A stretch of DNA of 64,000 bases from positions 69,199,292 through 69,263,291 of the forward strand of contig OZ023205.1 of NCBI GenBank assembly GCA_963995525.1, written 5' to 3'. Source of the stretch: Escarpia spicata. Taxonomy: Eukaryota > Annelida > Polychaeta > Sabellida > Siboglinidae. This document shows, in pieces, positions 18,440 through 62,608 of this stretch (position 1 is the first letter of the stretch; the number at the start of each line of letters is the position of its first letter). The position numbers and the translations under genes were made by a program. The notes below the pieces were generated by a model. That model was given only the letters and a program-made list of their open reading frames with translations. It did not search any database and was not told the DNA's origin.

Positions 18440-20405
18440 GACAGAGGCTTCATGCAACTAACAAAGGCTGTTGATGCAATGGATATGGTGGCCCTAGGTG
18501 CAGTGGCAACAGTAACCGAGGTGACGCGCTCTTTTTCTTGCTGCTGAAACAACACAACATGACCTTCATGATATATGGACAGATGTATGTACGTACGTAC
18601 GTACGTATGCATGTATGAACAGATATATGTGCTTCGTAACAGCGTTTGAAATATTCTGAAAAGTAAGTCACCTTATTTATAACGTGGGCTGAAGACATTT
18701 GTAAAACATTTAAATTTGAAACTCACTATTACCTCTTTAGTTTTTTCTCCCACTGCTGCTGTTTCTCCACTTTCTCTGGCAACATACCTTCTTGCAGTGG
18801 TGTACACATCCTTCCTTCGCTTAGACGGTGACGATGCTGGCGGGTTGAGTGGAGTAGAGGGTGGGGACAATAATGCTGGGGGGTTGGCTGGAGTAGGGAG
18901 TGGGGACAGTGATGCTGGTGGGTTGGCTGGAGTGGGGACTCTGATGCTGGCGGGTTGGCTGGAGCAGGGAGTGGGGACAGTGATGCTGGCGGGTTGGCTG
19001 GAGTAGGGAGTGGGGACAGTGATGCTGGCGGGTTGGCTGGAGTAGGGAGTGGGGACAGTGATGCTGGCGGGTTGGCTGGAGTGGGGACTCTGATGCTGGC
19101 GGGTTGGCTGGAGCAGGGAGTGGGGACAGTGATGCTGGCGGGTTGGCTGGAGTAGGGAGTGGGGACAGTGATGCTGGGGGGTTGGCTGGAGTAGGGAATG
19201 GGGAAAGTGATGTTGGGGGATTGGCTGGGGCAGGGAGTGGGGACAGTGATGCTGGCGGGTTGGCTGGAGCAGGGAGTGGGGACAGTGATGCTGGCGGGTT
19301 GGCTGGAGCAGGGAGTGGGGACAATGATGCTGGCGGGTTGGCTGGAGCAGGGAGTGGGGACAGTGATGCTGGCGGGTTGGCTGGAGTAGGGAGTGGGGAC
19401 AGTGATGCTGGCGGTTTGGCTGGAGCAGGGAGTGGGGACAGTGATGCTGGCGGGTTGGCTAGAGTAGGGAGTGGGGACAGTGATGCTGGGGGGTTGGCTG
19501 GAGTAGGGAGTGGGGACAGTAATGCTGGGGGGTTGGCTGGAGTAGGGAGTGGGGACAATGATGCTGGGGGGTTGGCTGGAGTGGGGACTGTGATGCTGGC
19601 GGATTGGCTGGAGTAGGGAGTGGGGACAGTGATGCTGGCGGGTTGACTGGAGCAGGGAGTGGGGACAGTGATGCTGGCGGGTTGGCTGGAGCAGGGAGTG
19701 GGGACAGTGATGCTGGCGGGTTGGCTGGAGTAGGGAGTGGGGACAGTGATGCTGGGGGTTGGCTGGAGTAGGGAATGGGGAAAGTGATGTTGGGGGATTG
19801 GCTGGGGCAGGGAGTGGGGACAGTGATGCTGGCGGGTTGGCTGGAGCAGGGAGTGGGGACAGTGATGCTGGCGGGTTGGCTGGAGCAGGGAGTGGGGACA
19901 ATGATGCTGGCGGGTTGGCTGGAGCAGGGAGTGGGGACAGTGATGCTGGCGGGTTGGCTGGAGTAGGGAGTGGGGACAGTGATGCTGGCGGTTTGGCTGG
20001 AGCAGGGAGTGGAGACAGTGATGCTGGCGGGTTGGCTGGAGCAGGGAGTGGGGACAGTGATGCTGGCGGGTTGGCTGGAGTGGGGACAGTGATGCTGGTG
20101 GGTTGACTGGAGCAGGGAGTGGGGACAGTGATGCTGGTGGGTTGGCTGGAGCAGGGAATGGGGACAGTGATGCTGGCGGGTTGGCTGGAGCAGGGAGTGG
20201 GGACAGTGATGCTGGCGGGTTGGTGACTGGGGCTGCTGAGGCTGGTACTGTTCCAGTGGCTGCCCGGGTAGCTGTGACAGCGACGTCAAGCTGGATGCTG
20301 TAGACAAAGGCGGGGAATTCGGGTGGGTGACAGGGGATGCAGCGGTCGGGGCAAGAGGTGTGGCATCATACCAGCCCCCTGAAGTGGGCTGCCTCTTTGG
20401 CAGCA
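18440..20405 (-). CDS. possible proline/glutamine-rich protein gene interrupted by a minisatellite
   Basis: Low-confidence minus-strand gene. 20405-20225 is open and coding-like, with KRQPTSGGWYDATPLAP and then a Ser/Pro/Gln-rich run. 18868-18760 continues the repeat frame as LNPPASSPSKRRKDVYTTAR and reaches a good donor (AAGAAG then GTATGT). A possible next exon follows the acceptor TTGTTGTTTCAG at 18549. Between them the 39-bp array could encode 13-residue Pro-rich repeats (SPLPTPANPPASL), but units of other lengths shift the frame. It may equally be intron. I do not recognise the protein. Confidence 0.3.
18838..20225 (-). repeat. 39-bp minisatellite, about 36 copies, with higher-order duplication
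   Basis: Units start GTGGGGACAGTGATGCTGGC on the plus strand. Most are 39 bp, and a few are shortened (for example near 18935, 19080, 19585 and 20080). A rare variant containing GGGAAAGTGATGTTGG occurs at about 19203 and again at about 19780, with similar neighbours, so a block of about 577 bp was itself duplicated. 39 is a multiple of 3, which explains the long ORFs in several frames. Confidence 0.97.
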
Positions 20406-42064: not shown

Positions 42065-42317
42065 TTAGTTTCTTGCTTGAGAGCTGGGCCTGCCTCTGGA
42101 CATTTTGTAGAGATTTCTATTGAATGCAGTTCTCTTTCGGACGTTGCCATCACCAGTGGTTGAACTGACACCATTTGAATGCATACCGTTGACATCGTCT
42201 AGATCATCAGTAGCTGGTGTGTCACCATTGGCTGTTGCGTCGCTGGTGTCGATTGTTGTTGCCTTGAGCTGTGAGCTTTGTAGGTCTAGCAAATAGTGGC
42301 AGTCGTCTATGACAAAA
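42065..42317 (-). CDS. PGAP3: PGAP3 exon 8 (C-terminus)
   Basis: Acceptor CATTGCAG; stop TAA at 42065-42067. Starts [14 protein letters not shown], like the mammalian end, then adds a hydrophilic Asp/Thr/Asn-rich tail of about 65 residues ending [10 protein letters not shown]. Confidence 0.9.
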
Positions 42318-44034
42318 CTGCAATGAAGAGGGTTAATGAAAAACGTTCTACAAATATAAAATAAAAAGGGTAGTATTATTTAACCCTTTAGACCTGAACT
42401 GCTCGCAACGGGTCAATCTGTCATGTGGTCTAAAGGGTTAAAGGCATAATGCCTGACTGTTACATATATACAGTTTCATACACTCATTTATCACACCAGG
42501 TATTAAGTTGCACAGGCCTATTCTGCATACAAGCCAAAAGTAGCTGTGTAGATCATCATCATGTCCCATTACAATTTTGGCACATATGTTCAGTTTACTT
42601 TTCTCGACAAATAATCCAAAACTTCTGAATCCACATAATTATTTAAAAAAAAACAGACATTACGAGTCAAAATGTTCTTGTTTGTTAAAATTTTAGCAAT
42701 AAATCAAAGACAACTGAAGATATTTTAATAATAAATGAGGAAGCACTTTCAAGTTCTTGATCTGTGGAGTCCAAAATTGTACTAATCTCCATTTCAGAAT
42801 TTTGCAACTTAATACGCACTTCACCATAGCAGGTCACAAATGTACTTGACGAATAGCAAAGTTTGTTGTTATGCCACCCACCTGTACCAGAGAAACGGTA
42901 ACCAAACCGTCCCAGCATGCCACAGTGAGTGGGCGTCGAAGATCCACAGATAAGGCGGGAAGTCTCCGAGTTCAAAGGCGAGTAGGAGCAGGAGGGATAT
43001 GGAGACGGTGGCTGCCTTCCACACGTAGGGCTGCTCCCTTCTCTTAAGGAAGCACCATGTCAACCAACAGGCGCAATTGAGTATACCTAGAACAGGAGTA
43101 GATAATAATTGCTCTTATTAAAGTGAGGCAGTCTGTACCGTATTAAACAAATATATCTAACCAAACTATAATTGATATGGAATCGATATGATATATCTAT
43201 GTATATATGGGGTAGGCTGTGGCCAGCTTCTGTCTTGAGACAATGCTTGTAAAATATGGGGGTATGTTATCGTTAACAGTTTCCTCTCGCCAAACTTTCA
43301 CATACCGATCGTTCAAAAGAAAACGTTTAAATTTTCAATATACCCCATTGGTTAAGGATTTTATTAGTGTTCATATTAGGGTCTAAAAAACGGGGTCCCA
43401 AAAACAAAAATGGGGTCCAAAGATATGGATTATTAAATGATCTAAATTAATGAGTGGCCTTGATAAATAAATAAATGTTCATAACATTAGCACAACTCCT
43501 GATATGTATCACGTTACAAAGCATTATAAGCAGCAGATACATCATATTTTATTACATACACACACACACAGACACACACAGACACACACAGACACACACA
43601 GACACACACACACAGACAGACAGACACACACAGACAAACACACACACAGACACACACACACAGACACACACAAACACACACAGACACACACACAAACACA
43701 CAGACACACACACAGACACACGCAGACACACACACACAGAGACACACACACAGACGCACACACATACACACACAGACACACACACACACAGACACACACA
43801 CAGACACACACACAAACACATACACACATACAGACACACACAAACAGACACACACAAACAGACACACACACACAAACACACACAGACACACACACAGACG
43901 CACACACAGACAGACACACACACAGACATACACACACAAACAGACACACACAGACAGACACACACACACACAAACAGACACACACAGACGCACACACAGA
44001 CACACACACAGACACACATACAGACGCACACACA

Positions 44035-47000: not shown

Positions 47001-50000
47001 TGTTTACGCGTGCCCCCACTGTGTTAGGTAATCGAGGAGTGACACCCCTGGTGGCAGGACAGAAAGCCCGAAAGACGTTCTGTAGGTATATCGTCGCCAA
47101 CGGTAGAACAATGCCTTGCTAATTACAGTTTACCAAATTAGGTCACTCACGGGCATTGTCAGTCTAAAGACCTGTAGTCCACCAGCTTCGTCAGCGACAC
47201 GGATTGTTGACGACATTAAAACATTTAAACATTGTAGACAACGTACACTACCTTGTCCTTCGATAAAAAATTCACCGAGACTGTCACTGCAGCTTCACGA
47301 GTAAATAGTGAAGTTATGATAGTTCAATTCTTCGTGAACTGGCAGAAAACATGTTAACAACACGAGCACAATTTGGCTTGCTGCCTGTTAGGCGCTACCG
47401 TAAGATCAATCCTGTCTTGCTCCTCGATCCCTTTTTAAATAATGGTGTAATGTTTGTTTCTTTCTAATCTATTGGAATGATTCCCTCTTTAAGTGACAAG
47501 TTAAATGATATAGCAAGTGGTGTACTGATTTGCTCTACAATTTCCTTAAGCAGTTTCGGTGGTATCCCATCAACTCCAGGTGATTTGTTTTCTTTCATCT
47601 TTGTAATTTTCCTCGATATCATTTCAGGAGTAATAAACAACAAGATATGACAGTTAACTAAAATATGACATTTCACCCCTGAAATGCTGCCAACTGGTGG
47701 TGTGGCTGTTTAGTCCCTTGTTGTATGGACAATGCCTACCTATAGTAATGTTAGCCTTCATGTTGTAGCCGTAGTCAAAACGGCCCTGGGCCAGATACTG
47801 CACGTGGTAAACAAAGAGAGACAGGAACAGTGTTGAGATGGCCCCTACGGTCAGCCAGTTCTCTGTCCCCAGGAACCTGAAACATGTAATACACCAAAAC
47901 AATGTGTTATTCGTAATACACACCAACGAAGACATGAATTTCATTATATTTTTTGTGCATCCTGCACTTGTAAATTGTTAGTAACACTATTTACACAAAA
48001 TATTTGTGAATGACCAATTTAGTTTAAATTGAGCCAATTACCGTACTCAATGTTACAAATGTTAAACAATTGTCAAAACATGGCATAATTTATATGCTCG
48101 TTTAGATGCTTTGCAAGTTTTTCTAGACATTGAACATACTTTGTCGCATTAAAAGGAATTTGCAAATAATGTTGATAGATTATGCAATAACTGGCCATGC
48201 ATTAATTTTATTTTTAGTGAAAAAGTGTCAACGTATTAATTAGCAATTCCATAAATAGATATTGTAATCATTGGAATTTTTCTATGTCAACATCAGAAAC
48301 CTGACGCGTGGTGGCTGATAACCACGGTAAACCACCTTTAAATATATTGTCGGTTTGTTATGGCAAAGCAGTCATTATGGATCAAAATAAAACCAACTTT
48401 AAATGTGCCATTATGGCTAAGCAACTATTGGAGAATTAACATTATGTTAGTTGGTTATGTCTAAACAGCTTTCAGGGTTGAAAATAAGACCATGTGCACA
48501 ACATGTACAACATGTACAACATGTACAACATGTACAACATGTACCTGAGCCAGAGGATGTAGAAGGAGAAGACAACAATAGAGAAGGCACAGCAGTAGTC
48601 CATCAGCTGCAAGTCATACACAGAGCATCTGGTTACTATAGGTAAGCATCAGTTACAATGGTCAGTCGCAGTGCATCGGAAAATTTTACGAAAATGATGG
48701 TGCTTCATACTGTCGACAGATGGATCCACAATCTGATGTCACAATTCCGGTTACACGTGTGACCTCCATCAAGCTTCACCTTCGCAAGAACATTATTAGG
48801 GTGGGGTACATCAAAGAAAACATTGCGGCCAGAGGTTAAAAACAATATCACAGATGGTTCATTAATCATTATATATGATGATGAGTGCATATTCCACACA
48901 GTTTTGCCCCTGACAACTCAAAATGTTCACTGTCCCCATTCCTGGTGTTTAAAAATCACAATGAAACCTCAGAATGGATACACAAACTGTTGCTAATGCA
49001 CTGATGCCATTTTTAGCATATCTTTGCACAATATGATCAAAATGGGGAAATTTGAATGTGTAAATTGGACAAGGGCATACCTCAGTAAAAGGCTTGTCTC
49101 TTGCATGGAACACTGCTGACCAGAACCATGTGTTGACTCCCACCTAACAACAAACAAAAACAGCTAAAATACTCTGCCCTAATAAAATTATACTTTATTG
49201 GTTGTGTACTAATTAAATTGACTCTTTATGTCAAAAATATATTGTTTGATTGAGCTCACAGTAATGAGTATATATTGAAACCTCACTTGAGTTATCTATA
49301 TATTAGTACGCTAACTTGGAGGCAATGTAAATGTATCTCCCCCCAGGTGGCGCAGTTCATTCGCCTCTTTCTTTATTCGTATCCTTGGACCACTGGTCTT
49401 TCATCGACCAAATGGTGATTATTAAAGAAAATGTACCAATCCAAATGGTGATTATTAAACAACATATGAAATTAAAGAAAATGTATAAAATACAAAGGCG
49501 GTTATTTAAAGTTATTTACTTATTCCAGTGGACAAATTGAATGTAAGACATTATGGTGCCATATTCGATTTACATGGAAATTCTTAGTGGCTCCGTGCAA
49601 TGTTGACAACTGGTGACAGCAGAAATTAAAAGGTCATCGGGAATTAAATTAAGATAAAAATATGGTAATACTGAATTGGTGATAAGAGTTGCCCATGGTC
49701 TGTAGTACGAGGCTCCACACGTGGGTGTAAACTAGTCCTGATAATATATATAAATAAATACATAACAATTTTCACCTCACCATATACGTCTAGTGATCTG
49801 TGATACTTTACACCAGACGGCTATTCAAAATTGAGGTGCAGTAAAACCTGTCCATAACGGTCATCGTCTGGATTGCGCAAAATTACCGTTATAGGCAGGT
49901 TGCCGTTATGGAGACTTTCCTCCAGGTGGAGTCACAATATTATGAATGGTTATGTTGATGTTCGCTAGTTGGTACTCTCGTGAACAAAACAAACATAGAG

Positions 50001-53000
50001 TTAACAATAATATTAAATAATACACTACACAACTTGCTATATTTAACAGATGTTCCTTTTTTTCTTTTGGGCCATGGTAAAATCAATCACGCCATCCAAG
50101 TAAAGGCGAACAGAAAAAGCTTTGATGTCCAAAAGGAAACAAGAGGGTGTGAACGAGTGGAAGACAAGCATTGGCCCTGTGGCAGCATGCTCATGGCTTC
50201 TCTGAGCTCACTTCCATCTGTGGCTACATGCTCATGGCTTCTCTGAGCTCACTTCCATCTGTGGCTACATGCTCATGGCTTCTCTGAGCTCACTTCCATC
50301 TGTGGCTACATGCTCATGGCTTCTCTGAGCTCACTTCCATCTGTGGCTACATGCTCATGGCTTCTCTGAGCTCACTTCCATCTGTGGCTACATGCTCATG
50401 GCTTCTCTGAGCTCACTTCCATCTGTGGCAGCATGCTCATGGCTTCTCTGAGCTCACTTCCATCTGTGGCTACATGCTCATGGCTTCTCTGAGCTCACTT
50501 CCATCTGTGGCAGCATGCTCATGGCTTCTCTGAGCTCACTTCCATCTGTGGCTACATGCTCATGGCTTCTCTGAGCTCACTTCCATCTGTGGCTACATGC
50601 TCATGGCTTCTCTGAGCTCACTTCCATCTGTGGCAGCATGCTCATGGCTTCTCTGAGCTCACTTCCATCTGTGGCAGCATGCTCATGGCTTCTCTGAGCT
50701 CACTTCCATCTGTGGCAGCATGCTCATGGCTTCTCTGAGCTCACATTGGACATCAAAGCTGATTCTACTCCTCTTTGATGGAGTAAAGGAGCCACATGGC
50801 AGCTGCAACAAGCTAATGACAACATGTGTGACTCGATTGCAATTTGATAGTCCTGTGTACATGTGATGACACCCACAGGATGATGTTTTATTCAGGGAAA
50901 TTACGGATTCCATTTGACCTGCCCAGGTTGACCATGAATGGTTCGGTTCAAATTAACTGACAATAAACAGGTTACCTTATGGACAGTGCAAACTAATAGG
51001 AAGCCATTCGGGACTTTAAAAAGTGACTGTTATATCCAGGTTATTGTTATGGACAGGTGGCCGCTATGACAGGTTTTACTGTATATCTAAAAGATACATT
51101 TATAATTAGAACAAAAAATATAAGACAAACAATTAAACAATGAATGTAAGACTATCTCAAACATTGTATATGTTTTATTTGTGAACATGATAAAAAGTAC
51201 TTACTAATATAAATGGATACAATAGACATAATTAAAAGGCTCTTTTAATAATGTTAATTATGCGCATAAGCACTCACCATAGCGTAGATGTGCCAAACAA
51301 TGTACATGGGAGACTTGGATGAAACATTCTGCCGAAATCTGAGTATCATGTAGATATGAGGCAGACCATTGAGGATGGAGAAGAGAACAGAGGCTGGCTC
51401 TTGTACGCCGTAAAAACGGATGAATGGCCACTGGAATCACAAGACATTGATAACAAGATGACACAGGCTGGCTTTGTATGCTGTAGGATGGATGAATGGC
51501 CACTGGAATCACAAGACATTGACAACAATATGACACAGGCTGGCTTTGTATGCTGTACAATGGGTGAATGGCCACTGGAATCACAATATATTGATAACAC
51601 GATGACACACTGAAGGTGCCTATGTGAGGTGGTTTCACGAGAAGCCTAGAACACCATGGCATACAACACATCCTCTATGGATCTCCCAACGACGAACAAC
51701 GTTAAATCCTGAGCCATCTCGGCTAGAACTTGCCAAGGACATAAACGAAAAGCAACGTTCAGATCGCTAAATATATCCAGCTACAATTGTAGGAACTTGA
51801 AACTTGGCTATAACAACAAGCATCACAGACACGTAACTGAACAGTTATTTAACAAATGTGACTTTGTGTGCTTACAAGAAACATGGCTCTCGAAACAGGA
51901 TTTATGTGGGCTAAACAGCATCAATGAAAACTTTCATGGAATTGGTGAATCTTGTGTTGATGAAAGAGATGGCATAATATTGAAAAAACATGGTGGTGTT
52001 GCAATATTGTGGAAATTTGACCTTGAAGCAGGCATCACCCCTCTAAAGTTTGACCTTAACTGGGTTGTTGGTGTCGAATATAATTGTGGCAACAAAAAAA
52101 TGGTAATTTTGTGTGTTTACATGCCATATGAAAGTTATCAAAATAATGATGAATATCAGGAAAAATTTGGCACATTAATATGTATTATAGAAGATTTAGA
52201 AACTACGTGTGTACTGGTGGTAGGGGATTATAACGCCGACATTTCTGACGAGACTTCGTCATTTGGAAGGTCCCTTATAAACTTCTGCACTGAATACAAT
52301 CTGGTGCTGTCCAGTAAGCAGTATCTACCACCTGATTCGTTCACCTACATCAGTGATGCATGGGGTAGCACCTCATGGCTAGATCATTGTATAGCTACAC
52401 ATGATGGTAATGATGTGATCAATGACATTAGTGATGCATGGGGTAGCACCTCATGGCTAGATCATTGTATAGCTACACATGATGGTAATGATGTGATCAA
52501 TGACATTAGTGATGCATGGGGTAGCACCTCATGGCTAGATCATTGTATAGCTACACATGATGGTAATGATGTGATCAATGACATCAGTGATGCATGGGGT
52601 AGCACCTCATGGCTAGATCATTGTATAGCTACACATGATGGTAATGATGTGATCAATGACATCAGTGATGCATGGGGTAGCACCTCATGGCTAGATCATT
52701 GTATAGCTACACATGATGGTAATGATGTGATAAATGACATTAGTGTGTGCTATAATCTTGCTACCACAGATCATATCCCTGTGATAATCGATGTCAATGT
52801 AGACAGTGTGCCAGGTGTAGTACCCGGTACTAACAATAACACTCAGCCACGTCTTAACTGGTCAAGACTTAACAAAGGTTCCATTGACAATTACTGTAGA
52901 CAGACTGATACTGAACTGAAAAACATTGTATTACCTATTGATGCTATTATATGTACTGATGTCAACTGCAATGATGAGTCTCATCAGAAAGCACTTAATA

Positions 53001-56000
53001 ACATGTATGATAATATAACCAGGTGTTTAACTGATGCTAGTGGCTGTTTGTCTACTCACAAACAAGGAAACTATACATGTCGGCCTGGGTGGACTGATTA
53101 TGTGGCAGATATCCATAAAGCTGCTAATGAAGCTTTCCAACTATGGGACAGTATAGGTAAACCTAAACAAGGTCCTGTTTTTGAGTTAAAAAAGAAAGCT
53201 GATGCTAGATGCAAATATGCAATAAGGTTTATTAAAAAACATGAAAATGAGTTGAGGCGTGAAGCCCTTGCCAAGAAGATGGCTAACCATACAAATTATC
53301 AATTTTGGAAGGAGATCAAAACTATTAACAATAGTAAAATCCTCTTGCCAACTAATATAAATGGTAACAGTGGTGAAGAAGCTATTGTGAATATGTGGAT
53401 TCAACACTTTCGTGACTTGTTTAATTGTGTAAATAACAGTAGTGCCAAAACCCTAGCATTTGATGTTAGTTATGAGAGCAGCATTAGAGTGTTACCTGAA
53501 GAAGTCAAAGATGCTATAAGAAACCTTGACTGTAACAAGAGTTGTGGCCTTGATGGTGTGTATGCAGAGCACCTGAAGTACTGCAGTGAACGCATACTGC
53601 TTTTACTGTCAATGTGCTTCACAGGTCTGTTGGTTCATGGCGTACTGCCAAGTTCTATGATTTCTGTTATATTAGTGCCCATAATCAAGGATAAATCCGG
53701 CAAGATAAACAGTAAAGACAACTATAGGCCAATAGCACTGGCAAGTGTTATGTCTAAAGTTTTTGAAAAAATCTTGCTCAACAGAATGGATGACTTTTTA
53801 ACAACCAGTGACAACCAGTTTGGTTTTAAAAAGAAGCATGGCACTGACATGTACATTTATGTACTAAAAGAGGTTATTGCTAAATATCAAGCCTTAAATA
53901 GCTGTTTGTTTATGTGTTTTCTTGATGCATCTAAGGCTTTTGACCGTGTAAACCATAGTGTACTTTTTAAAAAGCTAATAGACAGAGAGGTTCCTGGTTA
54001 CATTGTTAGAATTCTAGTGTTTTGGTATGCGAACCAACAGATGTGTGTAAGATGGGGTAGTCATGTGTCTGACAGTATTTATGTAAGTAATGGAGTTAGA
54101 CAAGGAGGTATTTTATCCCCCTATTTGTTCAGTGTTTACATGGATGGTTTATCCACTGTACTTAATAGTTGCAATACAGGATGTTATGTAGGATATAATT
54201 GTGTAAATAATATTATGTATGCTGATGATCTTGTAGTTTTTTGTCCGTCCAACAGGGGATTACAGACCCTTCTCACCATCTGTGATAAATATGGAGTATC
54301 TCATGACATAAGGTACAATGCCAAAAAGAGTATGGTCATGATAATTAGAAACAAGAGTTGTAAGAATGTTAAATTTCCAAGTTTTATGCTTGGTAACGAC
54401 AAACTATGTGAGGTAGAATCTGTAAAATATTTGGGTCATATAATTTCAAATAGTATGCTAGATGACAATGATATATCTAGACAATGTCGCCAGTTGTATG
54501 CACAAGGCAACATGATCATAAGAAAATTTCATATGTGTTCAAATGATGTAAAGAAGACATTGTTTACTACTTTTTGCTCACCTATGGTGGAATTTTCATA
54601 ACTATGCAATCAGGAAATTGTATGTCTCTTACAACAATATATTTCGAATGGTGTTAGGTTATGACAGATACTGTAGTGCTAGTGAAATGTTTGTTAACAA
54701 TAATTTACCTAACTGTGCTGCTGTTATTAGAAATCTGACATATAGGTTTATATGCCGACTGCAGTTCTCAAAAAACATATTGATTTGTAACATTATTAAT
54801 AGTGACGTGAAATACATGTCAAGAATATGGAAATATTGGTTCAATTCCCTGTACATACATTTTGTTGACAGGTGATTTTTCATTCTGTACATTGTAACTA
54901 TTGTTATAACACAAGTATAGAACCATGATAATGTACTTGTATGTTGCATGGAGTCTGTGAATAAAGCAATTATTATTATTATATATATATTACACAGGCT
55001 GGCTTTGGATGCTGTAGAATGGATGAATGGCCACTGGAATCACAAGACATTTAAAACAAGGTGACAAGATATTTTGTTGGATCTCATATTAGATACATCA
55101 TTAACCAGATATATCAGACACTAGGAGTAAAGCACGTAGACCTACAAACTTGCAACAAAGGCAATTAGCTTTTTAGATATACTTGATAGTGAATGCACAT
55201 CACTTGATGAGTCTGTTTCATTTCGGTGACAGTGATATAAATATCTGCAATATTACAATTTATGTTGGCTTTGTATGTTGTAGAATGGATGAATGGCCAC
55301 TGGATTCATAAGACCTAACAAAATGACAGAGGCTGGGTCTTTGCCATACAGTTGCAATACATTAGAGATTAGACAACATCAAATAGACTGGTTTTGGAGC
55401 AAATGTTAAAACATATTTGATCCGTCTACAGCGGATCTTGTCACAGGTCATCAGAGCGAGAACAAGATCCGCAGTAAACGGATTGAAACGTTGCATACGT
55501 TTCAACATTTGCTCCAAAGTAAGTTTATTTCTTGCTGTCTAATTTAAATTGTGCTGTCTAATTAAGGCCCGTAAACTGAAAATAATATCATAACAGATGT
55601 GCCCTCAGTTTCCACATTTTGTTCGACTAGACATCATCATCTGGAATGAGATTACATTGCCCGCAATTTAGTGTAATAATATACTATTGCATTCCAAATA
55701 AGTGTACAGGTCGGAATAACAGTATAGGGTGGACATGCCTCGGAATTTTAATAAGAGTATAGGTCGGAATAACATAGTGTAGGATGGAAATTTCTCAAAA
55801 TTATAATAAGAGTATAGGGCTGAATAATAGTATAGGGAGGACATTTCCCGAAATTAAAATAAGAGTACAAGGCAGAATCAGAGTATAGGGCAGAAATTTC
55901 TTGGAATTATAATAAAAGTACACCTTGGAATTATAGCATAAGCCAGTAGTAAGGCAGAATTAACAAGATTTTAAAAGATTTCCATCCAGAAAATTAACTC

Positions 56001-59000
56001 TAGATGGCAGGTGGATAAGGAAGTCTTTTGGCTTATCGAGAGTCCAATACTTTTTATTTACGTGTATCCCACCCTTTTAAGGTATATGTCGATTTTATTT
56101 TAAAACATATTCACGTTACTAGCACCAACACAATCAGGAGATAATCTGGTCCTTTGTGTGAATGAGAACTTTCTTATGTCTAATCTACACTGTTCCTTTA
56201 CTAATGTAACTTCATATCCTCTGATCCTTCTATGTTTCTTAACTGAGAAACTAATATTTTCATAACAATTCACTATTTTAAACACTTCTATCTGATCTCC
56301 TCTCAATCTCCTGGTCTCTAGTGTTGTTAAACCAATTTTTTTAGACGTATTTCGTAACTAAGATCCCTAAGTTTTTGTATCATTTTAGTTGCTCTCCTCT
56401 GTACTCTTTCTAGCATATCTATGTCCTTCCTGCAATATGGCCTCCACGCTTGAATACAATATTCTAAATGAGGCCTAACTATTGTTTTATACAGCGGTAT
56501 TATTAGCTCTTTTTTCTTATACATTATAGTTTGCCTAATTAATCCAAGGATTTGATTTCCCTTTCAAAATACTGCACTGCTCTGAAACCTTCATATCAGC
56601 ACTAATAACCCTAAGTCCTTTTCTTTTACAGTAGTACTTAGTACAGAACCTCCCATTATATATTGTACATCTTCGTTCCCATGTCCTGTGTGGAAGCATT
56701 AACATTTCCCAAGATTGAACAACATTTGCCATTTTTCAGACCATTTTATCAATCTGTCAAGATCATCTTGTAAATGCTGTCCATCTTCATCACGTTTAAT
56801 CATTCTAAACAATTTTGTATCATCCACAAATTTCAACACCTTGCTTGTTATATCGTCGTCCAAATCGTTGATATATAGTAAGAATAATATAGGTCTCAGT
56901 ACTGATCCCTGTGATACAACACTCAAAACTGATTTCCAGTTTTAAGCCTCCCCATCAACTACTACCTGTTGTCTTTTGTCAATTAGCCATTTTCTATCCA
57001 GTTAATTAAAATATTTCCTGTGCCATGGGTCTTTAGCTTAAGCAGTAATCTTTGATGTGGCACTTTGTCGAAAGCTTTCTGAAAATCTAAGTAGATGATA
57101 TCTACTGGTGATTGCTCGTCTACCCATTTAGTGATATCTTCCAAAAAATATAACATATTTGTTAAGCATGACCTCATCTTTAGAAACCCATGTTGAGATG
57201 GGTTTAACAAGTTATGTTTAACAAGAAAATCCACCATGTGATCTTTAATTAGTCTTTCTAATAATTTGCAAACCACTGGCGTTAAACTCACTGGAGCCGG
57301 TTTCATGAGCGTATTTACGACGTCGTAGCAACCGCTACGACGTCGTAAGTTTAGAACGTCGTAAAGTTACATTATTTGGGTTTCATGAGTATCCTAAGTG
57401 CGATTAGCCGTTGCTAGTTGGTCGTAACTTTGCGCTTGGTATATAGCAGGCGTAAGCTTACGTTATTTGAAATATTCGCAGGATGCACCCCAAGTTCTAA
57501 GATAAAAGCACACACGAGACATGTATATTTACAATCATCAATAGCTTGGTGTTTGGTGCATGAACTGCAAAGAAGACACATTAGACGAGAAAGAGTGTTC
57601 AGAGATAGGAATAACCCTCTTGATTCGTTAAACGACGATGAACAAGTTGAGCATTATAGGTTTAGAAGAAATGATATATTATTGTGGCTGACCGATGCTG
57701 CTGGTACACCTCCAATAGCACTGTCACCTTTCCGTCTGAAAAAAATTAGCTTTAAGCTGTCTATTTACTGCCGACTCGAACGCTACCGGTACTTTCGACA
57801 TTTTCCCAGCGCCGTAACTTCTTAAGTGTAGGGTTAGCAAAGCCAAAGGCAAGCGAGACGTCAGACGCTGTGATTCGCGTCTTTCATAGTTTGTTCAAAT
57901 GTGGCAGTATTCGTGCTAATTTCACTCTGTACAACTACATATACATTTTCTATGCAAAGCCACACTTAGCAATAAAATATGCATTCGTTCGAAATTACAC
58001 CATACGAACTTTTATGGCTCATTATTATTTCCTGCGTGCTTACATTTTACTGCGGACACAGGAATTCCCATCGCAACGTAACTAGGTCAATTCTACGTCG
58101 ACGTAGTTACGCGAATGTTAAATTGTTCTCATGAAACCGGTCGTAAGTCACACCAGCTAGTTGCACTTAACTACGACCAGTATAACGTCTAATTGTGCGT
58201 AAAGTTACGCCGCTTCATGAAACCGGCCCCTGGTCTGTAGTTCTCTGATTTGTTTCTGGAACCTTTCTTAAATAACAGTATAACGTTTGCTTCTTTTCAT
58301 TCTAAAGGAACCTCTCCCTCTTCCAATGACAAGTTTAAAAACTGTTGCAAGTGGTATGCTAATTTGTTCTACAATTTCCAATAGTAGTTTGGGCGGAATC
58401 CCATCCATTCCAGGTGATTTATTATCCTTCATAGCCCTAATTTTCTTAGCTACCATTTCCGGGGTTACAATTAACTGTCCTAAATAGTCTGATTATGCCC
58501 CCTTGAACTTAGCCTCTGGTACTGGCAGTGAACTAATATCTTCCCTGGTAAACACTGAACTAAAATACTCATTCAGGTCTTCTGCCATTAAGTATCCTTC
58601 TGATATTATATTTCCAGCACTATCTTCTAGAGGACCGACCTTATCCTGAACTTTCTGTTTGCTCCGAACATATGCATAAAAACTCTCGCAGCCTTGCTGT
58701 GTTGTTTTATATTAAAAGCTAATTTTTGTTTGTACCTTTTCTTCGAATTTCTAAGTTCAGTTGTGGCTTGGTTTAGTACTTCTTTATAAATGTTGTAGTC
58801 TTCGTTATTTCCGGTACATCTATATGACTTCCACATCGTTTGTTTGTACTTAATTTTTCTAATGGCTTCTTTCAATAAGTATTTCTTTCTGGACCGTTTC
58901 CCTTGTTTTTTAAGGGAACAAATTTATCGATGATGCACTCAATTTCACTCTTTAGGATAATCCAGCATTCTGTTGCTGTCTTATTCTTCAGTGTGTTATT

Positions 59001-61161
59001 CCAGACTATCTTTGCTAAATATTCCCTCATTACCTTATAACTTCCTTTGTAAAATTTCTCCTGAACTGCTTTTTATTATTTCTTTCTGATTTTACTTTGA
59101 TGGTAAATTGTATCTGGTTGTGATCACTACTCCCAGTGGCTCACATAATTCGACATTGCCAACTAATTCATTCTGGGAGGCCAAAACTATGTCTAACACA
59201 TTCTCACCCCTGGTTGGCTCTAGCACATGTTGAGAAAGAAAACTGTCTTGTACTAAAACTAAAAACTTGTGGCCCTCACTCCCTGTACTCTGTAAAGATT
59301 TCCATTGTATATGACCATGGTTAAAATCTCCCATAATAATACAGTCCCGTTTGCTAACTTCCCTTATAGCGTTTTATACTTTTTCATTCTCTTCTATGCT
59401 TATGTTTGGACTTCGATAAACTAACCCCACCTTTAACGTTAAGTTTCCTGTAACTATGTTACACCAAACAGCTTCTTAGCAATCTGCTTCTCTAATTTTA
59501 TTTCATAAACTTGGATAGATTCTTTACCATATAAGATAACTCCACCTCCCCTTTTTTCTATTCTATCTTTCCTGAACATTACATAGCCTGTTAGTCCCAA
59601 TTCGGCACCTGATATATCAGTGGTGGCCCATGATTTGGTTATATCTATTATGTGAGGGTCAATATCGTCTACCATAATGTTTAGTTCACTTCTTTTGTTT
59701 ACTATGCTCCTTGCATTTAAACAAACGCAATTATATCCTGATTCAGAACAGTTTTCCAGGCTGTTCTTTGTTGATTTATTTCTGCTGTCTTTACCTGCCT
59801 CCAGTTTCAGGCTTCTCTGTGAATCCCCCCTGAGAATCTAGTTTAAATAGATGCAGCCTGTCCCACTGTCAACAGATTGCAGCAAGTTCTCTGAGAAAAC
59901 TGCTGCCCCCTTTCCACTTAGATTGAGGCCATCTATCATATAGATATCTTCCCTCCCAACAAAGTATCCCCATAAATCTATGAATACCACCCGCACTTCT
60001 TTATACATCTGCTCAACAAGTGCGTTGATCGCCATCCTCTTGCACTTTCTATATGTTGGCCCCCTTCCTCCCATTACTGGAAAAATTCCTGAGAGACTAA
60101 TCTGTTCGACTCTTGTCTTCTTTAACTTCCTCACTAACTTAAGTTGCAAAGTGTGTATTTAGTTTAATTAGTGTCTTTTTGACAATGCAACAACATAATT
60201 ATATGCAAACAGGAGTTGCCTACATCAAGCAAACAATAATACTGTATATTAAATCAAACGTCGAAACAAAACTCCAAACATTACGCTTCATTTAGTCTGT
60301 TTCAGTGATTAGTAGTTTAACACTAACTGATATGTGTTGAAAACAGTGAACGAAATATATATATAATTGTTAGTATTATATAAATAGAAACAATGCCAAA
60401 TTCTGTGGGAAACTCTAAGATAATGTAAATAATTCCGCCAAGCCTGCCATCCCTAAATACATAAATGGAGTGATCCACTATGGCTTGTTAACCATATAGC
60501 TCTGCCGCGTAGCATCGAGGTCACTACTGCATTAAAGGTTGTCTGGTGGCGTCTCGCCATGTGAATTGGTCACATCGCAAATTTGCCTGCGAAACGTCGT
60601 TAATCACGCTTTATTACTCAGCCCTAGACTGCGAAATTCACAATTTATTAGCCATAATACCAACGTCCTGACCACAACATGATCCCAATAAAACATAACA
60701 AACCTTTATATTTAGCACACAGGTTCCCTAAGTGCTCCTTTTATGCATACGTGTAGTTTTTCAATTAGCTAGTGAAAAGATCGCCATCTGCCATGATTGG
60801 CATGGTGACCAGCGTAAACAGCGTCGCAAATAAAAACATGTAGTGCCTAATAAAAAATGTATAAGGTGGAACTAACAACAGTAAATAACCACAGACCCAA
60901 ATAAAACACATACACGGTGGAACTGCCAACATTAAATAAGCGTACAAACCCGAAAAAGACCGTATCTTTTGTCCAAATAAATAGCCATACATATACGCTT
61001 ATTTGGAATGCAATAGTAGAGATAGGACTGACCTTGCCATGAAACTGTGGAACCCGCCTCTTCTGTTGAAGTAGAGATTTGACTGTGTGCCACATGCAGT
61101 GATAGTCACACTCATCTCTGCAACTCCACTGCATCCAGCGCATGTACCACGGCTGAACAGC
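42065..61161 (-). CDS. PGAP3: PGAP3 (Per1-like), GPI-anchor lipid remodelling protein, missing exon 1
   Basis: Minus-strand split gene for the Golgi multi-pass Per1/CREST-family enzyme needed to remove an unsaturated fatty acid from GPI anchors. Exons (5' to 3'): 61161-61033, 51430-51278, 49143-49081, 48606-48545, 47876-47740, 43086-42882 and 42317-42065. All junctions are GT-AG and every phase agrees. Signature pieces: [16 protein letters not shown] with [52 protein letters not shown], and [16 protein letters not shown], which holds the conserved Asp and His of the CREST fold. About 334 residues are visible. Exon 1, with the signal peptide and Cys-rich start, lies beyond 64000. The C-terminal tail is longer than in mammals. 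The introns are full of repeats and mobile elements. Confidence 0.95.
42380..42441. mobile_element. 62-bp piggyBac-like micro-inverted-repeat
   Basis: Perfect 15-bp inverted ends, TTAACCCTTTAGACC and GGTCTAAAGGGTTAA, enclose 32 bp. TTAA at each end next to CCCT/AGGG is the piggyBac signature. It sits in the last PGAP3 intron. Confidence 0.6.
42882..43086 (-). CDS. PGAP3: PGAP3 exon 7
   Basis: Acceptor TGTTCTAG, donor GTGGGT. Encodes [20 protein letters not shown], a helix, and [20 protein letters not shown] with the conserved D and H near the active site. Confidence 0.95.
43552..44226. repeat. CACACAGA-type complex dinucleotide satellite
   Basis: About 675 bp of (CA)n interrupted by GA, AA and GC steps (CACACACAGACACA and similar). 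It lacks stops in several frames purely by composition. In a PGAP3 intron. Confidence 0.98.
44448..44804. repeat. 27-bp minisatellite, about 13 copies
   Basis: Unit begins GTATGGATGGACATTATTTG, 27 bp long. Copies differ by single bases (G/A before TAGAT, C/T in GGACAT). The multiple-of-3 length keeps frames open. Not a gene. Confidence 0.97.
45005..47110 (-). mobile_element. CR1/L2-like non-LTR retrotransposon, truncated and broken
   Basis: Minus-strand fragment. From 5' to 3' I see [25 protein letters not shown] followed by a stop where Trp is expected, [29 protein letters not shown] and TDHYHI (endonuclease), then the linker. The reverse transcriptase has [19 protein letters not shown] and [17 protein letters not shown]. 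It ends abruptly near 45005, so the YADD region is gone. Several stops and frameshifts. In a PGAP3 intron. Confidence 0.8.
47405..47640 (-). mobile_element. short CR1 reverse transcriptase fragment
   Basis: The minus strand reads [20 protein letters not shown] then [10 protein letters not shown], a stop, and further CR1-like TPLFKKGSR. It matches the fingers region of the CR1 copy at 9.4-12.3 kb. Isolated piece in a PGAP3 intron. Confidence 0.85.
47740..47876 (-). CDS. PGAP3: PGAP3 exon 6
   Basis: Acceptor TGTTTCAG, donor GTAGGC. Encodes a membrane helix and [15 protein letters not shown], the family's RFDYGYN motif. Confidence 0.94.
48500..48544 (-). repeat. 10-bp tandem repeat starting at a splice donor
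   Basis: Read on the gene strand, GTACATGTTG is repeated about five times directly after PGAP3 exon 5 (CTCAG), so each copy carries a GTACAT donor-like word. Confidence 0.93.
48545..48606 (-). CDS. PGAP3: PGAP3 exon 5
   Basis: [20 protein letters not shown] plus a split Arg codon, between CTTGCAG and GTACAT. MDYxCA is a conserved CREST motif. The donor begins a 10-bp tandem repeat. Confidence 0.93.
49081..49143 (-). CDS. PGAP3: PGAP3 exon 4
   Basis: Twenty-one codons ([20 protein letters not shown] plus E) between TTGTTAG and GTATGC. The NxWFWSxVFHxRD motif holds conserved Ser and His residues of the family. Confidence 0.95.
49839..51081. mobile_element. pogo/Tigger-like DNA element with internal minisatellite
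   Basis: Ends CAGTAAAACCTGTC and its inverse GACAGGTTTTACTG, with related sequence (CTGTCCATAACGG-like) inside both ends. TA follows the right end. The left arm encodes [11 protein letters not shown] (plus strand, about 50100). The right arm encodes a related SFDVQ segment on the minus strand (about 50760). Both resemble the start of CENP-B/pogo transposases. It lies between PGAP3 exons 3 and 4. Confidence 0.7.
50180..50745. repeat. 41-bp minisatellite, about 14 copies
   Basis: Unit contains TCATGGCTTCTCTGAGCTCA followed by CTTCCATCTGTGGC and either TAC or AGC. Spacing is exactly 41 bp (50191, 50232 and so on to 50724). Two interspersed variants (CTACATGC and CAGCATGC) form a mixed pattern. 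Confidence 0.97.
51278..51430 (-). CDS. PGAP3: PGAP3 exon 3
   Basis: Fifty-one codons between GATTCCAG and GTGAGT. Encodes [20 protein letters not shown], then a helix, then [15 protein letters not shown]. Its first ~45 bp and acceptor are the source of the 72-bp repeats. Confidence 0.95.
51421..51609 (-). repeat. 72-bp repeats copying the PGAP3 exon 3 acceptor (left block)
   Basis: The word TGAATGGCCACTGGAATCAC occurs at 51421 (real exon edge) and 51493, with a close variant at 51565. On the gene strand each copy reads TTCCAG then TGGCCATTCA, an intact 3' splice site plus exon start, followed by a decayed copy of the next exon bases. Confidence 0.93.
51700..54875 (+). pseudogene. non-LTR ORF2: APE endonuclease plus reverse transcriptase
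   Basis: Open from about 51700 to 54601. Endonuclease motifs: [45 protein letters not shown] and TDHIPVI. Reverse transcriptase motifs: [70 protein letters not shown] and [10 protein letters not shown] stop or small deletion at about 54600 shifts the frame. The C-terminal part ([20 protein letters not shown]) continues in another frame to 54875. The endonuclease carries an unusual five-fold internal repeat. Confidence 0.88.
52349..52740 (+). repeat. 78-bp tandem repeat inside the endonuclease ORF, 5 copies
   Basis: Five copies at exact 78-bp spacing (GTGATGCATGGGGTAGCACC at 52353, 52431, 52509, 52587 and 52665), 26 residues each. Every copy encodes [20 protein letters not shown]. Confidence 0.97.
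54992..55320 (-). repeat. 72-bp repeats of the PGAP3 exon 3 acceptor (right block)
   Basis: Continuation of the array beyond the retrotransposon. Copies at about 55024 and 55290 are separated by about 190 bp of other sequence. The second copy has ATTCAT in place of AATCAC. Confidence 0.88.
55395..55518. repeat. fold-back inverted repeat, about 120 bp
   Basis: GGAGCAAATGTT at the left matches AACATTTGCTCC at the right, and AGCGGATCTTGT matches ACAAGATCCGC around the centre. It could form a long hairpin or be a small foldback transposon. Confidence 0.75.
55680..55955. repeat. degenerate tandem repeat, about 60 bp unit
   Basis: Phrases like GAATAA.AGTATAGGG, GGA.ATTTC and GAATTATAATAAGAGTA recur four to five times up to the start of the CR1 tail. 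Confidence 0.75.
57294..58229. mobile_element. PIF/Harbinger-like DNA transposon, 936 bp, inside CR1
   Basis: Ends GAGCCGGTTTCATGAGCG and, inverted, GGGCCGGTTTCATGAAGCG. Flanked by CTG on both sides; the empty site in CR1 copy 1 has a single CTG (CACTGGTCT). A 3-bp CTG/CAG duplication is typical of Harbinger. Subterminal palindromes at both ends contain TACGACGTCGTA-like words. Too short to be autonomous. Confidence 0.9.
57418..57825 (+). pseudogene. Harbinger transposase N-terminal remnant
   Basis: Contains [18 protein letters not shown], then [14 protein letters not shown], the start of Harbinger nucleases (fRdRxNPLDxxxDxExxxRYRFxR). The sequence then runs out of homology with no DDE catalytic region, so this is an internal-deletion derivative. 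Confidence 0.8.
60138..61032. other. PGAP3 intron 2 end, nothing recognised
   Basis: AT-rich sequence, no ORF or repeat that I can name, ending at the PGAP3 exon 2 donor. Confidence 0.6.
61033..61161 (-). CDS. PGAP3: PGAP3 exon 2
   Basis: Forty-three codons, phase 0 at both ends, between AATTTCCAG and GTCAGT. Encodes [18 protein letters not shown] and continues to VPQFHGK. Its acceptor is copied many times in the array immediately upstream. Confidence 0.95.
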
Positions 61162-61835
61162 CTGGAAATTGGTCTCATCTGCAACCAAAGTGAGAGCATG
61201 TACCACGGCTGAACAGCCTGGAAGTTTGTCTCATCTGCAACCACAGTGAGAGCATGTACCAAGGCTGAACAGCCTGGAAGTTTGTCTCATCTGCAACCAC
61301 AGTGAGAGCATGTACCACGGCTGAACAGCCTGGAAGTTTGTCTCATCTGCAACCACAGTGCGAGCATGTACAACGGCTGAACAGCCTGGAAGTTTGTCTC
61401 ATCTGCAGCCACAGTGAGAGCATGTACAACGGCTGAACAGCCTGGAAATTTGTCTCATCTGCAACCAAAGTGAGAGCATGTACCAAGGCTGAACAGCCTG
61501 GAAGTTTGTCTCATCTGCAACCACAGTGAGAGCATGTACCACGGCTGAACAGCCTGGAAGTTTGTCTCAGCTGCAACCACAGTGAGAGCATGTACAACGG
61601 CTGAACAGCCTGGAAGTTTGTCTCATCTGCAACCAAAGTGAGAGCATGTACCACGGCTGAACAGCCTGGAAGTTTGTCTCATCTGCAACCACGGTGAGAG
61701 CATGTACCACGGATGAACAGCCTGCAAGTTTGTCTCATCTGCAACCAAAGTGAGAGCATGTACATCGGCTGAACAGCCTGGAAGTTTGTCTCATCTGCAA
61801 CCACAGTGAGAGCATGTACCAAGGTTGAATGATGC
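61162..61835 (-). repeat. 56-bp minisatellite copying the PGAP3 exon 2 acceptor, about 12 copies
   Basis: On the gene strand each 56-bp unit reads GATGAGACAAACTTCCAG then GCTGTTCAGCCGTGGTACAT, i.e. the intron end, the AG and the first ~22 bases of exon 2. It directly abuts the real exon 2. Single-base variants are scattered through the copies. Confidence 0.97.
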
Positions 61836-61856: not shown

Positions 61857-62608
61857 TTAACCGCCATGACAAGTCTCCCCTTTCAGTGCGAATGTCTTGT
61901 CTGGCAGAAGGCAGATGAACAGACCAGTCTCGTCGACATTGTAAATGTCACGAGGGGAGAAGTGGAAGAACAGACCAGTCTCGTCGACATTGTAAATGTC
62001 ACGAGGGGAGAAGTGGAAGAACAGACCAGTCTCGTCGACATTGTAAATATCATGAGGGGAGAAATGGAAGAACAGACCAGTCTCGTCGACATTGTAAATG
62101 TCACGAGGGGATAAGTGGAAGAACAGACCAGTCTCGTCAATGTTGTAAATGTTACGAGGGTAGAAGTGGAAGAACAGACCAGTCTTGTCGATGTTGTAAA
62201 TGTCACGAGGGGAGAAGTGGAAGAACAGACCAGTCTCGTCGATGTTGTAAATGTCACGAGGGGAGAAGTGGTGCAACAATTCTGGAAGATCTTTCATAAA
62301 AGTATCGACGACTCTGGGAGATGGCAGCACTCTCACCACTGTTGATAAGGATGTTTTGTGGAGTACAGATGTCACAAAACAACGTGAAAAGTGCTACCTC
62401 GAACTGATCTAATTCGTTTTCTTCTGGGGCTGGCATTTGTCTCCCACTGTTGTAAAATGTTGTAGCGATTCTTCAAGATTGTGCTTAGGGAACTAGGTGC
62501 GATGCCATTTACTTCTGACACAACAGACTTTTGCCATCCGTCATCTACGGACCGAATGATGGCAATCTTAACCTCTAGATCTAAGCACTTGTATTTGAGA
62601 CCTGGCAT
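61857..62608 (-). pseudogene. pogo/Tigger (CENP-B/jerky-like) transposase, broken
   Basis: The start (62608) reads CLDLEVKIAIIRSVDDG and SSLSTILKNR, the CENP-B N-terminal DNA-binding helix-turn-helix. After frame changes near 62375-62436 it continues to DLPELLHHFSPRDIYNIDET and ends LLPDKTFALKGETCHGG. IYN-x-DETG holds the first catalytic Asp of the DDE domain and is repeated here. The rest of the DDE domain is missing. In PGAP3 intron 1. Confidence 0.82.
61918..62274 (-). repeat. 51-bp in-frame repeat of the transposase DETG motif, 7 copies
   Basis: Copies every 51 bp (61918, 61969, 62020, 62071, 62122, 62173 and 62224). Each encodes 17 residues containing DIYNVDETGLFFHFSPR. One copy has DKTG and one NIYNIDETG. 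Confidence 0.97.

Follow-up and report, generated by a model that had tools for sequence, protein, structure and literature searches.

The window, a stretch of 64,000 nucleotides of the Escarpia spicata genome, carries on its minus strand the gene PGAP3, which matches the Pfam family Per1 (E 1e-94) and whose spliced protein has 338 residues. Exons 2 to 8 lie in the window, all on the minus strand, and their positions rest on open reading frame, GT/AG and homologues: exon 2 (61033..61178, 146 bp; acceptor TTGCAG/ATGAG, donor AAG/GTCAGT), exon 3 (51278..51430, 153 bp; acceptor ATTCCAG/TGGCC, donor ATG/GTGAGT), exon 4 (49081..49143), exon 5 (48545..48606, 62 bp; donor CAG/GTACAT), exon 6 (47740..47876), exon 7 (42882..43086) and the coding part of exon 8 (42065..42317). 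The coding part of exon 1 is found just outside the window, at C1:69264816-69264681, with the donor AGAG/GTTAGT; its final base is G, and the resulting phase 1 is compatible with the start of exon 2. Intron 1 is about 4.2 kb long and, by the coordinates, roughly three quarters of it is filled by arrays.

Minisatellites whose unit spans an exon-intron boundary have been described in amphioxus under the name of mirages (PMC3087553, PMC3902484), and the first-pass annotation of this DNA took the window to be from a lancelet. The term and the examples are confirmed in those two papers, while the identification of the organism has to be given up. In a protein search with PGAP3, among the best 120 of 620 proteins, the top matches were two from Ridgeia piscesae (77% and 69% identity), and the gene is 71% identical to that of Lamellibrachia satsuma and 76% to P0001, a protein of 378 residues; the remaining matches of these 120 are at most 55% identical, including Branchiostoma floridae with 53% at places 92 and 97. 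Exon 1 is 91% identical to that of Ridgeia over 45 residues. A tree of 27 rows puts the window in a clade of five rows together with two Ridgeia proteins, Lamellibrachia and P0001, with a support of 100/100, and Ridgeia belongs to the family Siboglinidae of the Annelida. That mirages are known from lancelets would speak for reading the locus as simply another lancelet mirage gene, but the identities and the tubeworm clade leave this reading practically no chance of being right, and a lancelet origin was rejected.

Arrays at the exon edges of PGAP3

Arrays were called with TRF, and copies of junctions were searched by BLAST of 80-bp windows centred on the 13 exon boundaries of PGAP3 against the whole window. 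Junction-spanning copies were found at 2 of the 13 boundaries, the acceptors of exon 2 and exon 3. That the 3' splice sites of these exons lie in the units of a 56-bp and a 72-bp array, as the first-pass annotation had claimed, is borne out. The 56-bp array (61140..61829, minus strand, 12.3 copies) consists of 11 decoys and the real exon 2 acceptor, and its unit is made of 39 exon bases and 17 intron bases; the 11 copies span the junction, with 94-96% identity among the 8 matches listed by BLAST. The 72-bp array (51387..51609, minus strand, 3.1 copies) comprises the real exon 3 acceptor and two decoys. Since the TRF spans overlap the mapped exons, exon 2 contributes 39 bp to the 56-bp array and exon 3 contributes 44 bp to the 72-bp array. 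For the exon 3 acceptor, four junction-spanning copies were found in the whole window at 79-89% identity, and two of them are located beyond a LINE, at 54996..55066 (minus strand, 86% identity) and, the farthest, at 55266..55335 (minus strand, 79%). At both exons the array has the real junction as the copy at one end. The units at both acceptors span the exon-intron boundary, and the arrays are mirages in this sense.

The third case is different. What had been taken for a 10-bp array built on the 5' splice site of exon 5 is a 9-bp array (48498..48544, minus strand, unit GTACATGTT, 5.2 copies) that begins at the donor GT, and BLAST of the 80-bp window against the whole window found no junction-spanning copies of this donor. 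The array abuts exon 5 and contains zero exon bases, so its unit does not span the boundary. All three arrays do touch the real junction, two by overlapping the exon and the 9-bp array by ending at the base that adjoins exon 5, but the three independent cases proposed from the first reading come down to two junction-spanning ones and a third that merely abuts a donor. The same BLAST of 80-bp windows found no duplicated junctions at exons 4, 6 and 7 and no duplicated acceptor at exon 8.

The copies at exon 2 have diverged in a manner that sets the real exon apart from the decoys. The real exon has the same base as the decoy consensus at 37 of 39 exon positions, an agreement that shows the units to be derived from the exon, and both differences are synonymous. 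When the 11 decoys are compared with their own consensus, three synonymous and seven non-synonymous codon changes are seen. As the differences between exon and consensus are synonymous and those among the decoys mostly non-synonymous, exon 2 looks constrained and its decoy copies do not.

At exon 3, inspection by eye shows that the four decoys all differ from the exon in the same way: three CpG have become CpA, and two single bases are lost. Because the departures are common to all four, the decoys descend from one intronic founder, not from repeated copying of the exon. At a codon where the exon has GTA (V), the decoys have ATA or ATC (I); among seven aligned homologues, this residue is I in six, M in P0003 (a second Ridgeia piscesae PGAP3 gene model) and V in none. 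Since no homologue has V, the founder of the array is probably older than the change of the exon to V. We note that CpG decay of the exon's GTA could give ATA as well, as the decoys have this ATA where the exon has a CpG.

The order of later events at exon 3 can be read directly. A LINE (51610..54991, plus strand), with an open reading frame that contains an RVT_1 domain, is inserted within the exon 3 array, and its 5-bp target-site duplication, ACACA, is present at 51605-51609 and 54992-54996. The insertion split the array after the array had formed. Inside the LINE open reading frame, upstream of the reverse transcriptase domain, lies another array (52347..52745, plus strand) of 5.1 copies of a 78-bp, 26-residue in-frame unit, which indicates that tandem growth also happens away from junctions. 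Likewise, the 41-bp array at 50177..50744 (minus strand) is an array of the same kind within an intron of PGAP3, and it stands away from any junction, the nearest exon boundary being 534 bp off.

The exon 2 acceptor has a second, more diverged array, which adjoins exon 1 outside the window (L005 1339-2287; 55-bp unit, 17.2 copies) and is separated from the 56-bp array by 2.5 kb. Its homology to the exon 2 acceptor unit is supported by an alignment score of 53, compared with a maximum of 27 in 2000 shuffles. When the 55-bp consensus was compared with exon 2 peptides, the scores were 40.5 for P0003, 38.4 for P0001, 32.0 for Lamellibrachia, 29.5 for the window and 28.9 for the other Ridgeia gene. 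Judged by these scores, the 55-bp array might be a copy of an older exon 2.

Tandem copies of this kind could have been made or inflated by misassembly, and it has been reported that the lancelet genome draft was aberrantly assembled at BflGb6 (PMC3087553, PMC3902484). In the tubeworm, though, the copies of an array differ among themselves, a LINE with its target duplication interrupts one array, a diverged array of the same exon 2 junction is present 2.5 kb away, and further junction duplications occur on contigs C2, C5, C13 and C14. We consider an assembly artefact highly improbable.

Several other repeats were observed in and around the gene. Intron 1 contains a transposase-like open reading frame (61857-62393, minus strand) whose end is no more than about 30 bp from the 56-bp array and which itself harbours an array (61917..62271, minus strand) of a 51-bp, 17-residue in-frame unit. 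A Pfam scan of this reading frame gave no transposase match; its motif DIYNVDETGLF resembles pogo/Tigger elements. Between 55682 and 61018, 30-nt inverted repeats 5.3 kb apart and 90% complementary flank a LINE relic, and the outer end of one of them and the exon 2 donor are about 15 bp apart. An array of 36 copies of a 39-bp unit lies apart from PGAP3 (18833-20223), with no exon identified in its vicinity, and one of about 50 copies of a 36-bp unit, upstream of exon 1, runs to the end of the stretch L005 (8191-10000). A 38-bp array from 62852 to about 64180, with GTGAGT on the sense strand, was suspected of copying the exon 1 donor; this was rejected because that donor is GTTAGTGACAGC and exon 1 is 1.2 kb off.

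Exon edges and chance

Whether splice junctions are targeted by duplication or tolerate it, as the first-pass annotation put the choice, depends on how often arrays would reach an exon edge by chance. Ten arrays are found in the 42-64 kb part of the window, and three of them touch a PGAP3 boundary. When arrays were placed at random, with up to 50 coding bases permitted per array (a limit chosen after 44 had been observed), the mean was 0.31 boundary-touching arrays, with P(>=3)=0.0026; the probability that one or more arrays end no farther than 1 bp from a boundary was P=0.020. A null model for founder units gave an expectation of 0.25, with P(>=2)=0.027 and P(>=3)=0.0022. Both are post hoc, the gene having been selected for its pattern. 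A different answer was obtained when the boundaries were moved instead of the arrays. Sliding the 13 boundaries over the window duplicated 1.7 of them on average (P(>=2)=0.48), and sliding them within 42-64 kb gave a mean of 3.0 (P(>=2)=0.79), against the two observed. As there is no excess in the sliding-boundary test, duplication is no commoner at PGAP3 junctions than elsewhere.

We surveyed exon edges elsewhere in the same genome (1,060,511,957 bases in 1097 contigs), using exon matches of three Pfam families with 1.5 kb of flank on each, picked regardless of repeats. For CCT (PF00118), 29 of 46 matches were taken; for the myosin head (PF00063), 30 of 78, from which seven loci were dropped because they matched L047 at 85% identity or more along 1.9-3.4 kb, leaving 23; and for Sec1 (PF00995), all 12 of 12, three of them below the family cut-off. 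A search with cullin yielded positions alone. The edges were set by splice-site scores from a general consensus, and some are approximate. Neighbouring exons with overlapping flanks were retained, so that some flank points are counted twice. A GroEL-like open reading frame, L010 (C974:38794-40302, a frame of 549 residues matching the whole Cpn60 profile), is of the bacterial type and was not counted as an exon; its contig is perhaps that of a symbiont or a contaminant in the assembly.

A script flagged 8 of the 128 edges of these 64 exons, and after the sequences had been read and the edges at two loci reset, 7 of 128 remained; the flag at the L081 donor, a long match at 69% identity, was dropped. 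Duplicated junctions are present in 7 of 64 exons (95% interval, 4.5-21% of exons): acceptors in L013, L031, L038 and L081, and donors in L026, L072 and L077. We retained the L081 acceptor even though the HMM match there entered the array, contained stops and fell below the family cut-off; L079 and L080, also below it, were kept in the survey, and the count without these three loci is 6 of 61. L013 is a two-copy duplication of 345 bp, and the other six are arrays with units of 42 to 78 bp in 2 to 14 copies. By family, duplicated exons number 4 of 29 for CCT, 0 of 23 for myosin and 3 of 12 for Sec1. Both types of boundary are affected in this genome, acceptors in PGAP3 and, elsewhere, the three donors named above.

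Does this frequency reflect a process directed at junctions? Transcription-associated breaks or template switching at splice sites, for example, would duplicate exon edges preferentially, and such a process could account for three of ten PGAP3-region arrays touching a boundary where the two post hoc nulls expect 0.25-0.31, and for junction arrays in 6 of 64 surveyed exons. It would also predict a peak of duplication at the junction, and the profile over the 64 exons of three families has none. Points spanned by local duplication amount to 909 of 6400 in the flanks and to 46 of 1138 inside predicted exons, a figure that includes loci whose HMM match entered an array. The rate is 14.2% at 250-1200 bp outside the exon, 6.2% at the junction (8/128; 7 without the L081 donor) and 2.5% at 60 bp inside (3/122), with 13/128, 16/128 and 20/128 at 100, 250 and 600 bp outside; the junction rate (8 counted) minus that at 250-1200 bp has a 95% interval of -0.136 to -0.025 by bootstrap over loci. 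Because duplication declines smoothly from outside to the exon interior, junctions look tolerated rather than targeted. Tolerance is also in line with arrays of the same sort in the LINE open reading frame, in the transposase-like open reading frame and in mid-intron. Together with the sliding-boundary result, these observations make such a process very unlikely, and of the two options posed by the first reading, the survey supports toleration.

Decoy splice sites, origin and known counterparts

In the 56-bp array, AG is retained in 11 of 11 decoys, and CAG in all 11. Over eight arrays, three of them in PGAP3 (L013 and L038 were excluded), all 85 decoys have an intact AG or GT, while other dinucleotide columns of the same arrays, CpG excepted, are fully intact in 28-88% of cases, the product of the fractions being 0.0077. 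This test was devised post hoc, and as the copies are homogenised within arrays and the eight arrays include a homologous pair, it amounts to at most eight draws. The wider site also varies: the full trinucleotide or five-base core agrees with that of the real site in 3 of the 11 L031 copies and 5 of the 10 L077 copies, the real copy included. For these reasons, we regard the conservation of AG and GT as a lead rather than a result; such complete retention is not what neutral drift by itself favours.

Were the decoys under selection, as alternative acceptors, recursive steps or elements of regulation, their intact dinucleotides would be explained, and some of them could indeed be used: the nearest three of ten decoys in L031, and the nearest ones in L038 and L072, would add in-frame, stop-free sequence. 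Against this, use of any of the 11 exon 2 decoys, or of the two exon 3 decoys that adjoin the exon (two of four, those on the exon side of the LINE), is computed to give a premature stop, as is use of the nearest L026 decoy and of the other 7 of 10 in L031, and the nearest decoys of L077 and L081 would shift the frame. Moreover, P0001, encoded on a 1461-base contig from another source, has the expected junctions and zero decoy-derived residues. With the small number of independent draws and the variable wider site, selection on the decoys is, in our view, quite unlikely.

We consider it likely that the structures described here belong to the mirage type of minisatellite, in a siboglinid (vestimentiferan) annelid, and that they arose by ordinary minisatellite birth and overlap exon edges by chance. 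In a repeat-rich genome, the birth of minisatellites would sometimes overlap an exon edge. A short tandem duplication over the edge would leave the unique exon body joined to one end copy, and the gene could continue to work from that copy; junction duplications would persist since they leave the unique exon body whole. The inner copies, freed from coding constraint, would drift and amplify among themselves, and we infer that slippage or unequal exchange drives this growth. They retain AG or GT, but the spliceosome would normally pick the copy attached to the exon body, and PGAP3 would be correctly spliced in Escarpia spicata.

A bolder proposal is that about one exon in ten of this genome carries a junction minisatellite, independently of lancelets, and that the AG and GT of the decoys stay intact because the arrays serve as a reservoir of splice sites that can be used. 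We think this unlikely; if true, the genome would hold a standing supply of alternative acceptors, mini-exons and new introns.

The kind of structure is known. Amphioxus mirages are described in Adh3, the globins BflGb6 and BflGb9, troponin C and PGBD5, with repeats of 10 to about 160 bp (PMC3087553, PMC3902484). As far as the excerpts of these papers go, they have in common with the tubeworm arrays that both acceptors and donors are affected, that many copies retain AG or GT and that the exon-attached copy is unlike the inner ones. They differ in host, as the mirage range reported in the excerpts is that of cephalochordates and the tubeworm is an annelid. The tubeworm case further has an exon 3 array split by a LINE and an exon 2 acceptor with two arrays of unequal divergence in one intron, and it adds a count over the exons of three gene families.

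Tandem genomic duplication is also described as a source of introns, for instance in the RdRp gene of potato (PMC4974935, in excerpt). There, as in the tubeworm, the duplication carries splice signals; a new intron is reported in potato, whereas none is shown in the tubeworm, where the L026 array would be a substrate. L026 is a CCT-family exon (C2:27726144-27726413) with a 78-bp array, in whose units a copy of 36 exon bases is preceded by AG and followed by GTAAGT. This is near to what the excerpted globin paper proposes as raw material for new introns, and from its sequence the array is a candidate raw material for mini-exons. Among annelids, the earthworm metallothionein gene has minisatellites in its introns and duplications of exon 4 (PMC12783039), which resembles the tubeworm situation; in the excerpts of that paper, the duplicated exons are absent from the transcript, and the monomers, of about 180 bp on average, are nowhere described as exon-edge copies. 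In the excerpt of PMC3488318, the relevant terms are confined to the reference list. In the open-access literature on tubeworms and annelids, covered through titles and the openings of abstracts, we found no earlier report of junction-copying minisatellites, and the occurrence in an annelid is without an earlier case found there.

The presence of mirages in an annelid suggests that any lineage with heavy minisatellite growth may carry them. Duplicated splice sites make a testable supply for intron gain, and the decoys offer fossil copies of older exon sequence within introns. Gene models and short-read assemblies of such genomes may misplace exon edges. The Ridgeia piscesae gene model P0003 contains an insert of 14 residues, in which DET is repeated, where exons 1 and 2 meet. 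The insert is possibly a mirage copy in use; its resemblance to the array units in a degenerate-codon comparison is weak (P 0.14 and 0.024), and it counts as a lead only.
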